A stretch of DNA of 64,000 nt, taken from Streptomyces sp. SJL17-4 (GTDB lineage Bacteria > Actinomycetota > Actinomycetes > Streptomycetales > Streptomycetaceae). The first letter of the stretch is position 1. Each line of letters starts with the position of its first letter. The position numbers and the translations under genes were made by a program. Location: NCBI RefSeq assembly GCF_036826855.1, contig NZ_CP104578.1, positions 5,801,501 to 5,865,500 on the forward strand. Direction: 5' to 3'. Below are positions 51,050-54,086 of this stretch, in pieces. The notes below the pieces were generated by a model. That model was given only the letters and a program-made list of their open reading frames with translations. It was not told where the DNA came from and made no database searches.

Positions 51050-51640
51050 TCAAGCGGCGCGGAGGCCGCGGAGCAGCAGACTCACCACGGACTCGAACTC
51101 GGTCTCGATCGTGGGGCGCTGCCACTCCGGCGCGTAGCCCGGGTCGTGGAAGCGCGCGGTCGCGTAGAAGAGGGCGCGGGCGGTCGCGTCAGGGTCGGGG
51201 GCCGTGAACTCCGCGTCCCTGGCCCCCTCTTCGACGATCGACCGGACCTGGTCGATCAGGACGTCGATGTGCTGGTCGACCACCCCGCTGTTCTCGTCGA
51301 TCAGCACGCTGTATGTGGCGAACAGCTCGGGGTCGTCACCCGCCTTGTGCCGCTTGGCCTCGAAGAGGCGGGCGAACCAGTCGTGGAGCTTGGCCGGCGC
51401 CGCCAGGTCCGGGGCGGCCGTCAGCTCGGCGAGGGCGGTCTCGGTGCGCGAGAGCCACCGCTGGGTCACGGCCTCGCGCAGGGCCGCCTTCGTGCGGAAG
51501 TGGCGGTAGACGCTGCCGTGGCTGACGCCGAGGACCCGGGCCACGTCCACGACGGTCGCCTTCGCCGGGCCGTAGCGCCGCAGCACCTCCTCGGTTGCTT
51601 CGAGGATGCGCTCTGCGGTCAGGGTCTCGGTGGCGGCCAT
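51050..51640 (-). CDS. TetR-family transcriptional regulator
   Basis: This 196-aa TetR repressor has an N-terminal helix-turn-helix (V-V-D-V-A-R-V-L-G-V-S-H-G-S-V-Y-R-H-F) and a helical ligand-binding domain. Its start region adjoins the right end of a TnpB element: TACTGT (51647-51652, reverse) 6 nt before the ATG may be its -10, and any -35 now lies in element DNA. Before the insertion it would have followed the aldo/keto reductase gene by about 16 nt. A TGACAG/CTGTCA-type operator before that reductase makes it the likely target. Confidence 0.9.
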   Translation of the reverse strand: MAATETLTAERILEATEEVLRRYGPAKATVVDVARVLGVSHGSVYRHFRTKAALREAVTQRWLSRTETALAELTAAPDLAAPAKLHDWFARLFEAKRHKAGDDPELFATYSVLIDENSGVVDQHIDVLIDQVRSIVEEGARDAEFTAPDPDATARALFYATARFHDPGYAPEWQRPTIETEFESVVSLLLRGLRAA

Positions 51641-52908
51641 GGAATGACAGTACCTTTGACGTCCTCCCCGCCCTGACGGGCGGGGATTCCCCTGTGAGGG
51701 GTTCGGCCGGTCGCCCGGCCTACGGGTTCCTGCTTCACGGACCGGCCAGTGCCGAGGTCTCCACAGGCTGAGACCGCAAGTCCTGCGGCCTTGATGTTCT
51801 TCCCCGCGTTCACGTCGGCGTGCTCGCGGTGGCCGCAGTCAGGGGCTTTGCACACGAAGACCGCTTGGCTCTCACGGTTGCCTTCGGTGACGAAGCCACA
51901 GGCGGAGCACCGCTGTGACGTGTATGCGGGATTTACCTTCACCACCGACGTACCGGTGTACCGGGCGGCGCTGGTGAGGGCAAGTTCGAGGCGGTGCCAT
52001 CCCTTGTCGAGGATGGCCCGGTTCAGCCCGGCTTTCTGTCGGACCTGGCGGCCCGGCTTGGCGAGGGTGCCGGATGCGGATGCGGACATGTTCTTGATTC
52101 GCAGGTCTTCCAGGGCGACCAGCGCGTACGTCCGCACGATACGACCGGCGGTCTGCCCGCAGAAGTCCGCGCGCCGGTCGGTGACCCGGCCCATGATCTT
52201 GTTCATGCGAGCGCGGGTCTTGGCCTGGTTGGCGCTTCCTTTGTGGGTGCGGGAGAGCTGCTGTTGCAGGCGCCGGTACCGTGCGGCCTCGCCGGGCCGG
52301 ATGAATGCGCGATCGTGGAAGTCTCCGTCGCTGGTGACGGCCGCGAACTTCACGCCACGGTCGATCCCCACGGCGGTGCCCGGCATGGCGTGTCGTTCCG
52401 GGGTGGTGGCCTGGTCGTCGACAAGGAACGACACGAACCAGCGTCCGGCCTTGCGGGACACAGTCGCAGAGCGGATCTCGCCGCCGAGGGGACGAGACCA
52501 GCGGAACCGGACCCACCCCAGTTTCGGAAGTTTCGCTCGCCCCCACTTACTGCCCAGCCGCCCGCCCTGGATCTGTTTGGCGTCGGGGAACCGGAACGAC
52601 GGAGACCACCGGGTCTGCGACCGCCACCGCACCCGGAACGTGCCGTGCTCCCGGCATGCCCTGTCCAGGTCCTTGAGCGTCTGCTGCAGGATGTGCGACG
52701 GCGCGGCCTTGAGCCACGGATGCTCGCACTTGGCCTCGGCCAGCTCCTTGCACTGCGGGGCATAGTTCAACCACCCGCCGCGACGTCGGTACTCACGGCG
52801 CTGCTCCCGGCCGGTGTTCCACACCGCCCGACATACGTTCGCGAACTCCTCGCATTGCGCGGCCTGTTCGGCCGTCAGCTCAAGTAGATACCTACGACCA
52901 GACAGCAT
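51619..52908 (-). CDS. tnpB: TnpB, RNA-guided nuclease of IS200/IS605 element
   Basis: This 429-aa TnpB is an RNA-guided DNA endonuclease, ancestor-type to Cas12. The RuvC residues are present: D in G-I-D-R-G-V-K, E in V-A-L-E-D-L-R-I-K-N-M and D in H-A-D-V-N-A-G-K-N, as is the zinc ribbon C-S-A-C-G-F-V...F-V-C-K-A-P-D-C-G-H. No tnpA transposase gene is present. AGGAGG precedes the ATG at 52908. The frame runs through the element's right end into host DNA and stops 22 bp inside tetR, so about the last 11 residues are host-encoded. Confidence 0.93.
   Translation of the reverse strand: MLSGRRYLLELTAEQAAQCEEFANVCRAVWNTGREQRREYRRRGGWLNYAPQCKELAEAKCEHPWLKAAPSHILQQTLKDLDRACREHGTFRVRWRSQTRWSPSFRFPDAKQIQGGRLGSKWGRAKLPKLGWVRFRWSRPLGGEIRSATVSRKAGRWFVSFLVDDQATTPERHAMPGTAVGIDRGVKFAAVTSDGDFHDRAFIRPGEAARYRRLQQQLSRTHKGSANQAKTRARMNKIMGRVTDRRADFCGQTAGRIVRTYALVALEDLRIKNMSASASGTLAKPGRQVRQKAGLNRAILDKGWHRLELALTSAARYTGTSVVKVNPAYTSQRCSACGFVTEGNRESQAVFVCKAPDCGHREHADVNAGKNIKAAGLAVSACGDLGTGRSVKQEPVGRATGRTPHRGIPARQGGEDVKGTVIPWPPPRP
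51656..51800 (-). ncRNA. Probable omegaRNA (reRNA) scaffold at element right end
   Basis: In this family the 3' end of tnpB and the right end encode the guide RNA. On the minus strand the region folds into successive stems (GGCCGGGCGACCGGCC, CCCC-N5-GGGG, CCCCGCCC-N4-GGGCGGGG at 51666-51685) and stops at the element end. The guide would continue into host sequence starting AGGTACTGTCATTCC, the leader of tetR. The 5' limit is a guess. Confidence 0.6.
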
Positions 52909-52961
52909 GAGGACACCTCCTCCGGCTGGGGGAATGACGAGGCTTGTGCTCACGAGTTGTT
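51656..52961 (-). mobile_element. IS200/IS605-like element carrying tnpB only
   Basis: The proposed element spans about 1306 bp. Its right end (read on the minus strand) has the typical hairpin CCCCGCCC-GTCA-GGGCGGGG, then GAGGACGTCAA, and the left end begins AACAACTCG directly after CTGAC (52962-52966), the presumed target/TAM. There is no terminal inverted repeat or target duplication, as expected for this family. The boundaries could shift by a base or two because both flanks start with A. Confidence 0.75.
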
Positions 52962-52962
52962 G

Positions 52963-54000
52963 TCAGTGCTCGCTGTCCAGGTGCGCCATCTGCGCCGCCG
53001 GGTACCGCTCGCCGGCCGCCGAGCCCGCCGGGACGGCCTCCTCGATCGCGGCCAGGTCCGCGGCGTCGAGCGTGACGTCCAGGGCGCCGAGCGCCTCCGC
53101 GAGCCGGTCCCGGCGCCGGGCGCCGACCAGCGGGACGATGTCCGCGCCCTGTCGCTCGGCCTGCGCGAGGACCCAGGCGATCGCGGTCTGCGCGACGCTC
53201 ACGCCCTTGGCCTCGGCGAGCGCCCGCAGCCGGTCCACGAGGTCCAGGTTCCGCCGGAGGTTGTCGCCCTGGAAGCGCGGGCTCATGCCCCGGAAGTCGT
53301 TCGCCGCCAGTTCCCGGTCGGCGGTGAAGTGGCCGCTGATCAGACCGCGCGACAGCACCCCGTACGCCGTGATGCCTATGCCCAGCTCCCGGGCGGTCGG
53401 TAGGATCTTCTCCTCGATCGACCGCGAGATCAGGGAGTACTCGATCTGGAGGTCCGCGATCGGGGCCACGGCCGCCGCCCGGCGCAGGGTGTCCGCGCCG
53501 ACCTCGGAGAGCCCGATGTGCCGGACGTGCCCCGCCTCGACCAGCTCGGCGATGGCGCCGACGGTCTCCTCGATCGGCACGTCCGGGTCGACGCGGGCGA
53601 TCCGGTAGATGTCGATGTGGTCGGTGCCGAGGCGCTGGAGCGAGTACGCCGCGAAGTTCTTCACCGCGGCCGGCCGCCCGTCGTACCCGGTGAAGCCGCC
53701 CTCGACCGTGCGCAGGGCGCCGAACTTCACGCTGGTCAGCGCCTGCTCGCGGGCGGCCGCGGGGGCTGTGCGCAGCGCCTCGTTGATCAGCAGCTCGTTG
53801 TGCCCCATCCCGTAGAAGTCGCCCGTGTCGAGCAGGGTCACCCCCGCGTCCAGGGCGGCGTGGATCGTCGCGATCGACTCGGCGCGGTCGCTCTCGCCGT
53901 ACAGCGCGGACATGCCCATGCAGCCGAGGCCGAGAGCCGAGACCTCGGGCCCGGTGGTGCCGAGTCGGCGGGTGGGGACGGGACGGCTGGTGGTGGTCAT
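52963..54000 (-). CDS. Aldo/keto reductase lacking the catalytic His
   Basis: This 345-aa AKR has the (alpha/beta)8 barrel pattern with catalytic D-T-G-D-F-Y and K in T-S-V-K-F-G. At the place where AKRs have H (Y-x-x-H-R-V-D) it reads I-Y-R-I-A-R-V-D-P, so the histidine of the Asp-Tyr-Lys-His tetrad is Ala. A recognisable subgroup of actinobacterial AKRs has A-R at this position. GAGGAG precedes the ATG at 54000. The stop TGA forms part of the insertion target of the TnpB element. A 24-bp inverted repeat upstream is the probable operator. Confidence 0.88.
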   Translation of the reverse strand: MTTTSRPVPTRRLGTTGPEVSALGLGCMGMSALYGESDRAESIATIHAALDAGVTLLDTGDFYGMGHNELLINEALRTAPAAAREQALTSVKFGALRTVEGGFTGYDGRPAAVKNFAAYSLQRLGTDHIDIYRIARVDPDVPIEETVGAIAELVEAGHVRHIGLSEVGADTLRRAAAVAPIADLQIEYSLISRSIEEKILPTARELGIGITAYGVLSRGLISGHFTADRELAANDFRGMSPRFQGDNLRRNLDLVDRLRALAEAKGVSVAQTAIAWVLAQAERQGADIVPLVGARRRDRLAEALGALDVTLDAADLAAIEEAVPAGSAAGERYPAAQMAHLDSEH

Positions 54001-54062
54001 GGCTGTCTCCTCGGATTCGGGAAGCGATGGATCGGTGCGACACGACAACCATGACATGACCG

Positions 54063-54086
54063 ATGACAGATTTCAATATCTGTCAT
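54063..54086. promoter_or_regulatory. Inverted-repeat operator upstream of aldo/keto reductase
   Basis: ATGACAGAT-TTCAAT-ATCTGTCAT is a perfect 9-6-9 repeat 63 bp before the reductase start. CTGTCATTCC, its right arm and flank, recurs in the tetR leader. Confidence 0.7.

Follow-up and report, generated by a model that had tools for sequence, protein, structure and literature searches.

A transposase-less TnpB element in a Streptomyces reductase-tetR junction that could still cut the empty allele

Introduction

Homing endonuclease genes are site-bound nuclease genes whose target is the empty allele. In IS1341-type elements tnpB stands alone and the Y1 transposase is absent. Retention by TnpB was reportedly treated by Meers et al. 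in 2023 (cited in PMC10711439).

Among described TnpB systems, cleavage of the donor joint has been demonstrated for ISDra2, with homing proposed (PMC8612924), and a preprint reports gene drive by TnpB on plasmids (PMC11870625). In the papers considered here, retention and drive are discussed alongside an active transposase or plasmids.

Here we analyze a tnpB element of Streptomyces sp. SJL17-4, located between an aldo/keto reductase gene and a tetR gene in a 64,000-nucleotide stretch of contig NZ_CP104578.1 (the window; all coordinates refer to it unless another contig is named). The element resembles homing endonuclease genes in being a site-bound nuclease gene aimed at the empty allele, although in this case the nuclease would be RNA-guided and the homing is putative. 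With ISDra2 of Deinococcus (PMC8612924), it shares the TnpB domains, the catalytic residues, a right-end scaffold with a flank-derived guide, and a target motif (TAM) left of the insertion without target duplication. The TAM is TTGAT in ISDra2 and TGAY here, and in contrast to ISDra2 the present element contains no tnpA, lacks the left-end hairpin motif, and has its stop codon in a host gene. Cleavage of element-free alleles, predicted here, is common to the TnpB gene drive as outlined in that preprint (PMC11870625), whereas our element is a chromosomal, probably immobile copy with putative activity. Finally, the nuclease-dead TldR repressors (PMC13418256) likewise derive from TnpB and lie beside a host gene, but here the RuvC residues are intact and no TGAY-flanked target was found in the element's own genome.

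From sequence comparison, we consider it fairly probable that the locus holds a transposase-less tnpB element of the IS200/IS605 type, inserted 3' of CTGAC where the reductase gene and tetR met in the ancestor, within the inferred promoter of tetR, and that its product could still cut empty alleles.

Results

Layout and boundaries of the element

The main features of the locus are as follows.

52963..54057, minus strand: aldo/keto reductase gene, upstream of the element and co-directional with it
52962..52966, minus strand: CTGAC left of the element, serving as TAM in the predicted empty site and at the same time surrounding the reductase stop
51656..52961, minus strand: inserted element of 1306 bp, comprising a short left end, tnpB, the omega-RNA scaffold and the right end
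52909..52961, minus strand: left-end remainder of 53 nt
51619..52908, minus strand: tnpB, 429 aa when counted from the ATG that aligns with relatives (PF01385, PF07282, PF12323), stop inside tetR
51656..51669, minus strand: right-end motif GGGGAGGACGTCAA, from comparison with related elements
51641..51655, minus strand: first 15 nt of the inferred guide, adjoining the right-end boundary and identical to empty sites in five genomes
51050..51640, minus strand: tetR gene, with the inferred -10 (TACTGT) and the start codon inside the guide region

Read on the minus strand, the end of the reductase gene, GAGCACTGAC (52971-52962), is followed by the element (52961-51656), by AGGTACTGTCATTCC (51655-51641), and by the tetR ATG (51640). 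The right end was located by an end motif common to related elements, and both ends were located by comparing the joined flanks with empty sites. In elements from other actinobacteria, this type of right end reads GGGGAGGA(C/A)GTCAA, with minor variants, and gives way to unrelated sequence; this shared motif fixes the right boundary here between GTCAA and AGG. Removal of 51656-52961 joins CTGAC to AGGTACTGTCATTCC-ATG, and the reductase stop codon TGA (52965-52963) lies inside the left CTGAC. The first-pass annotation, which gave the element as 51638-52968, had placed it correctly while taking in a few flank bases on each side. No tnpA or Y1 transposase gene is present among the reading frames of the element interval.

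Empty alleles and the target motif

The sequence TGAYAGGTACTGTCATTCC, that is, TGAY followed by the 15-nt guide, was found with at most one mismatch in 14 of 392 genomes of the genus, in all 14 at an aldo/keto reductase-tetR boundary and in five of them exactly. At the element-free junction of one genome (G292), which has a 16-nt gap, the identity with the joined flanks runs unbroken for 81 nt (22 on the left and 59 on the right), and at that of another (G167) for 85 nt (5 and 80, respectively); runs of this length across the joined flanks exclude chance. In two more genomes, G186 and G262, the reductase stop is joined directly to the guide sequence, with one guide mismatch each. That the element entered on the 3' side of a short target motif and left no target duplication is seen from these empty sites and from TGAY in related elements. 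Several expectations of the first-pass annotation are borne out by this comparison: relatives without the element carry the junction of CTGAC and guide target that its removal would restore, and the proposed ancestral arrangement with a 16-nt gap exists in G292.

The TAM was assessed in related elements, 57 loci being scanned. TGAY directly precedes the element tip CGG in all 11 left ends that were anchored (seven TGAT and four TGAC), two of which, L051 and L090, have an identical flank; only the inner left end served as anchor, since the left-end motif pattern itself required TGAY and was left unused for the TAM. These counts point to TGAY as the TAM, and CTGAC fits it. Natural empty sites and related elements thus back the reading of CTGAC as left flank and of the right flank, followed by the tetR ATG, as guide.

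The left CTGAC may or may not be the original TAM, and we hold the two histories in even balance. The element could have inserted at a longer spacer, such as that of G167, with a later deletion joining the interior of its left end to the reductase stop. The closest tetR relatives include G167, where CTGAC directly precedes the guide sequence in a long spacer; CTGAC is found at the reductase stop in 13 of the 14 empty junctions; and a left end of 53 nt, against 122-140 nt in related elements, suggests a deletion. On the other hand, in the junctions of G292, G186 and G262 the TAM is provided by the reductase stop. The conclusion on guide and TAM is unchanged in either history.

No TnpB was found at the junction in 29 other reductase loci (from 61 genomes) and in 29 other tetR loci (the best of 219 matching genomes, a set overlapping the first). 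A set of 61 relatives of G167 and a further draw of 338 genomes of the genus yielded genomes that were already covered; in the latter draw the filled junction occurs in the host alone. Many relatives have other junctions, for instance GGGTACGGTC, which is without TGAC, and the target is thus confined to a portion of the genus.

That the guide matches the junction it interrupts, a central point of the first-pass annotation, is true by construction, the right flank being what supplies the guide; this is definitional for TnpB of IS200/IS605 elements and not special to this one. In the host genome, two sites were found with up to three mismatches, namely, the filled site, with two mismatches that both fall in the TAM, and a three-mismatch site with GGAC instead of TGAY; a TGAY-flanked copy of the target was absent up to three mismatches. 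The filled site would be spared because GTCAA, and not TGAC, precedes the guide match. As in homing-type systems, the recognition site, read from sequence, corresponds to the allele without the element, and insertion abolishes this site.

The predicted right-end RNA scaffold

51656..51785, minus strand: inferred omega-RNA scaffold of 130 nt, extent approximate, from alignment with 21 relatives
51666..51685, minus strand: terminal hairpin CCCCGCCC-GTCA-GGGCGGGG, from sequence, alignment with relatives and fold

The last 130 nt of the element, taken on its own strand, fold better than shuffled sequences (z -2.46), and the consensus fold has 16 pairs, five of them with double-sided changes, its covariation term being weak (-0.44 kcal/mol). 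Two Rfam families match the same strand below their gathering scores, RF00062 at 51641-51761 (E 7.8e-5) and RF02656 at 51665-51702 (E 0.079). The latter is an omega-RNA family (PMC12558985). We predict a right-end RNA scaffold that ends at the fixed motif, the flank then serving as guide; the inferred guide extends beyond 15 nt into the tetR coding region.

Copies in the host and in the genus

One copy of the element is present in the 8.54-Mb host genome. A DNA search of this genome returned the element itself and one hairpin-like match of 26 nt without tnpB, 96% identical to the terminal hairpin region of the omega-RNA (L002, 1501-1526; G000:C1:2051229-2051254). A protein search returned three other TnpBs with 31-33% identity. 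At two host loci, G000:C1:3839159-3840820 and 4637590-4639160, a Y1 transposase accompanies a distant TnpB, whose identity over the matched stretch is 33%. The closest copies elsewhere in the genus have about 80% DNA identity, and they match in the element alone, not in these flanks. In five loci from other actinobacterial genera (L046, L048, L049, L050 and L055), a Y1-transposase-like frame seems, by eye, to end just before tnpB.

The TnpB protein

The presence of the OrfB_IS605 and TNB domains, the RuvC D-E-D residues and the zinc ribbon identifies the protein as TnpB of the IS200/IS605 type; an upstream GTG at 52953 would lengthen it to 444 aa. It aligns with the solved TnpB chains 8h1j and 8bf8, which we take to be those of ISDra2. 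For conservation counts and for the tree, we used 117 aligned homologues of length 370-470, drawn from the best 120 of 1122 proteins above threshold. With residue numbers counted from the ATG at 52908, D183, E267, C334 and C337 are invariant in this set, and D365, C353 and C358 are found in 116 of 117 homologues, the remaining one having a gap. The host protein retains D183, E267 and D365, so that the RuvC residues are intact, as had been read in the first pass, and it keeps all four zinc cysteines. It deviates at five of 137 near-invariant positions, a rate exceeded by only five of the 117 homologues; one of the changes is L34R, at a position where all other aligned homologues have leucine.

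The dN/dS ratio against 12 relatives is 0.19-0.25, matching the level among the remaining comparisons (median 0.215 over 66 pairs). Where five relatives agree in a codon, the host gene has 14 synonymous and 11 non-synonymous changes, which falls within the range of the five themselves, 10:2 to 5:6. Much of the tnpB divergence is probably older than the insertion. Nuclease activity, though putative, is plausible.

Nine Streptomyces relatives have their tnpB stop 35-37 nt short of the right end, and other elements stop elsewhere, some of them past the right end. In the host copy this stop is lost.

51689..51701, minus strand: CCCCTCACAGGGG in place of CCCCCTCATAGGGG, which carries the tnpB stop TAG in close relatives

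The frame overruns the right end by 37 nt into tetR and thereby acquires the flank-encoded ending GTVIPWPPPRP. Frames past the right end are seen in other elements too, for example, in L041, L043, L049 and L077.

An insertion apparently shared by four strains

A search with the last 48 residues of the protein found four proteins among 65 candidates, all of which end in VKGTVIPWPPPRP. Besides that of the host, they come from Streptomyces gardneri (391 aa), Streptomyces sp. NPDC056549 (429 aa) and NPDC059695 (376 aa). With the tail removed, exactly these four form a clade in the 117-protein tree (local support 0.999), with identities of 87-91% among themselves and of at most 84% to the others of the set. 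Two of the three proteins from other strains have internal losses, of 38 and 53 residues. The same flank-encoded tail within one clade is most simply explained by one old shared insertion, either inherited or copied, and, as far as protein tails rather than DNA can tell, the other three strains seem to carry it at the same site. A protein search with TetR did not return these three strains.

The location of the element at the tetR start, the reading of tnpB into tetR with a stop inside that gene, and the retention of the extended frame in all four tail-sharing proteins could also be accounted for if the insertion, or a TnpB ribonucleoprotein, controlled tetR or the reductase operon, for example by TldR-like repression or by translational coupling of tnpB and tetR. 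We regard such host regulation as highly improbable, since the RuvC residues are intact, unlike those of TldR, and the genome lacks a TGAY-flanked copy of the target within the mismatch limit given above. Moreover, the shared extended frame is partly an effect of ascertainment, as the search required that tail, and the four overrunning elements named above have such frames as well. A TldR-type repressor in particular was rejected, given D183, E267 and D365 and the absence of a trans target with TGAY up to three mismatches.

The left end and mobility

In 16 related elements with the left-end hairpin motif, 122-140 nt separate the TAM from the tnpB start; here this distance is 53 nt and the motif is missing. 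Thus the hairpin of the right end is present and the left-end hairpin motif is absent, and by its ends the element is a truncated derivative rather than an intact mobile element. Matches to the motif in L049 and L098 were set aside by eye as matches to coding sequence. The motif is also absent from the Streptomyces elements L041, L054, L070, L094 and L095 and from other rows of the comparison table, some of which have chance matches; with these five Streptomyces elements lacking a match, either this feature is not unique to the present copy or the motif misses some forms. Without the hairpin motif, excision by a transposase is unlikely, and the element is probably immobile. For the same reason, retention of the element after transposase excision, the role put forward in the first-pass annotation, is unlikely to be its present one.

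The lost left end raises the question of a dying relic, an old insertion that now cuts nothing and persists because it is harmless. We treat this as a tentative alternative, somewhat doubtful but to be taken seriously. The missing hairpin motif, the single copy in the genome, the internal losses (38 and 53 residues) suffered by two of the other three proteins with this tail, and the changes at five of 137 near-invariant residues, including L34R, are consistent with it. It is opposed by the state of the host copy, in which the reading frame, the three RuvC residues, the zinc ribbon and the scaffold at the right end are all intact, and by pairwise dN/dS as low as between other copies, though much of that divergence probably arose before the insertion. 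We prefer the reading in which a truncated tnpB element could still act on empty alleles.

Putative promoter and operator of tetR

A GGTACnGTC motif recurs shortly before tetR start codons in relatives, with its counterpart in the window at 51641-51655, which suggests the -10 element (TANNNT) of a leaderless tetR transcript. In the ancestor, the junction read TGACAG-GTA-CTGTCA, which forms a perfect inverted repeat; its half-sites are found again upstream of the reductase gene (TGACAGATATTGAAATCTGTCA), and the insertion may thus have split a TetR operator. At 54064-54085, upstream of the reductase gene, the inverted repeat TGACAG-N10-CTGTCA is kept with few variants in relatives and is likely a TetR operator.

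In 18 loci (L004, L005, L119, L120 and L150-L163), the reductase identity is 84-96%, at least 88% in 17 of them, whereas the identity of tetR to that of the window falls into two classes, 63-66% and 81-90%. The tetR gene behind the reductase looks in these loci as if it had been swapped by recombination. The tetR identity in L129-L147 is intermediate between the two groups.

Discussion

New here is an insertion that seems common to four strains; the present copy also seems to have lost one transposon end. Among the matches listed in our literature search, no site-orthologous TnpB in Streptomyces is described in titles and abstract openings.

We propose the following course of events. The tnpB transcript would run through the right end of the element and would be processed into an omega-RNA with the guide AGGTACTGTCATTCCATGG..., and TnpB would then cut empty alleles flanked by CTGAC. 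As the copy is probably not excisable, what would remain for it, if TnpB is active, is to eliminate or convert, in the manner of homing, those empty alleles that enter from related strains; in some lineages decay may have begun. Thus this may be an immobile, site-bound TnpB, still able to cut empty alleles and perhaps decaying. The stronger claim, that a TnpB without transposition has persisted at a single promoter in different Streptomyces species through nothing but RNA-guided homing into empty alleles, we consider unlikely; if true, the element would amount to a homing endonuclease gene that is guided by RNA and tied to one site.

The mechanism itself is already known, and this locus is an unusual natural test case for it. 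A filled allele, exact empty alleles, a left end without the hairpin motif, and an insertion that has apparently diverged across four strains form a natural experiment, which makes it testable in harmless soil bacteria whether TnpB homing alone is enough to hold an element in place.
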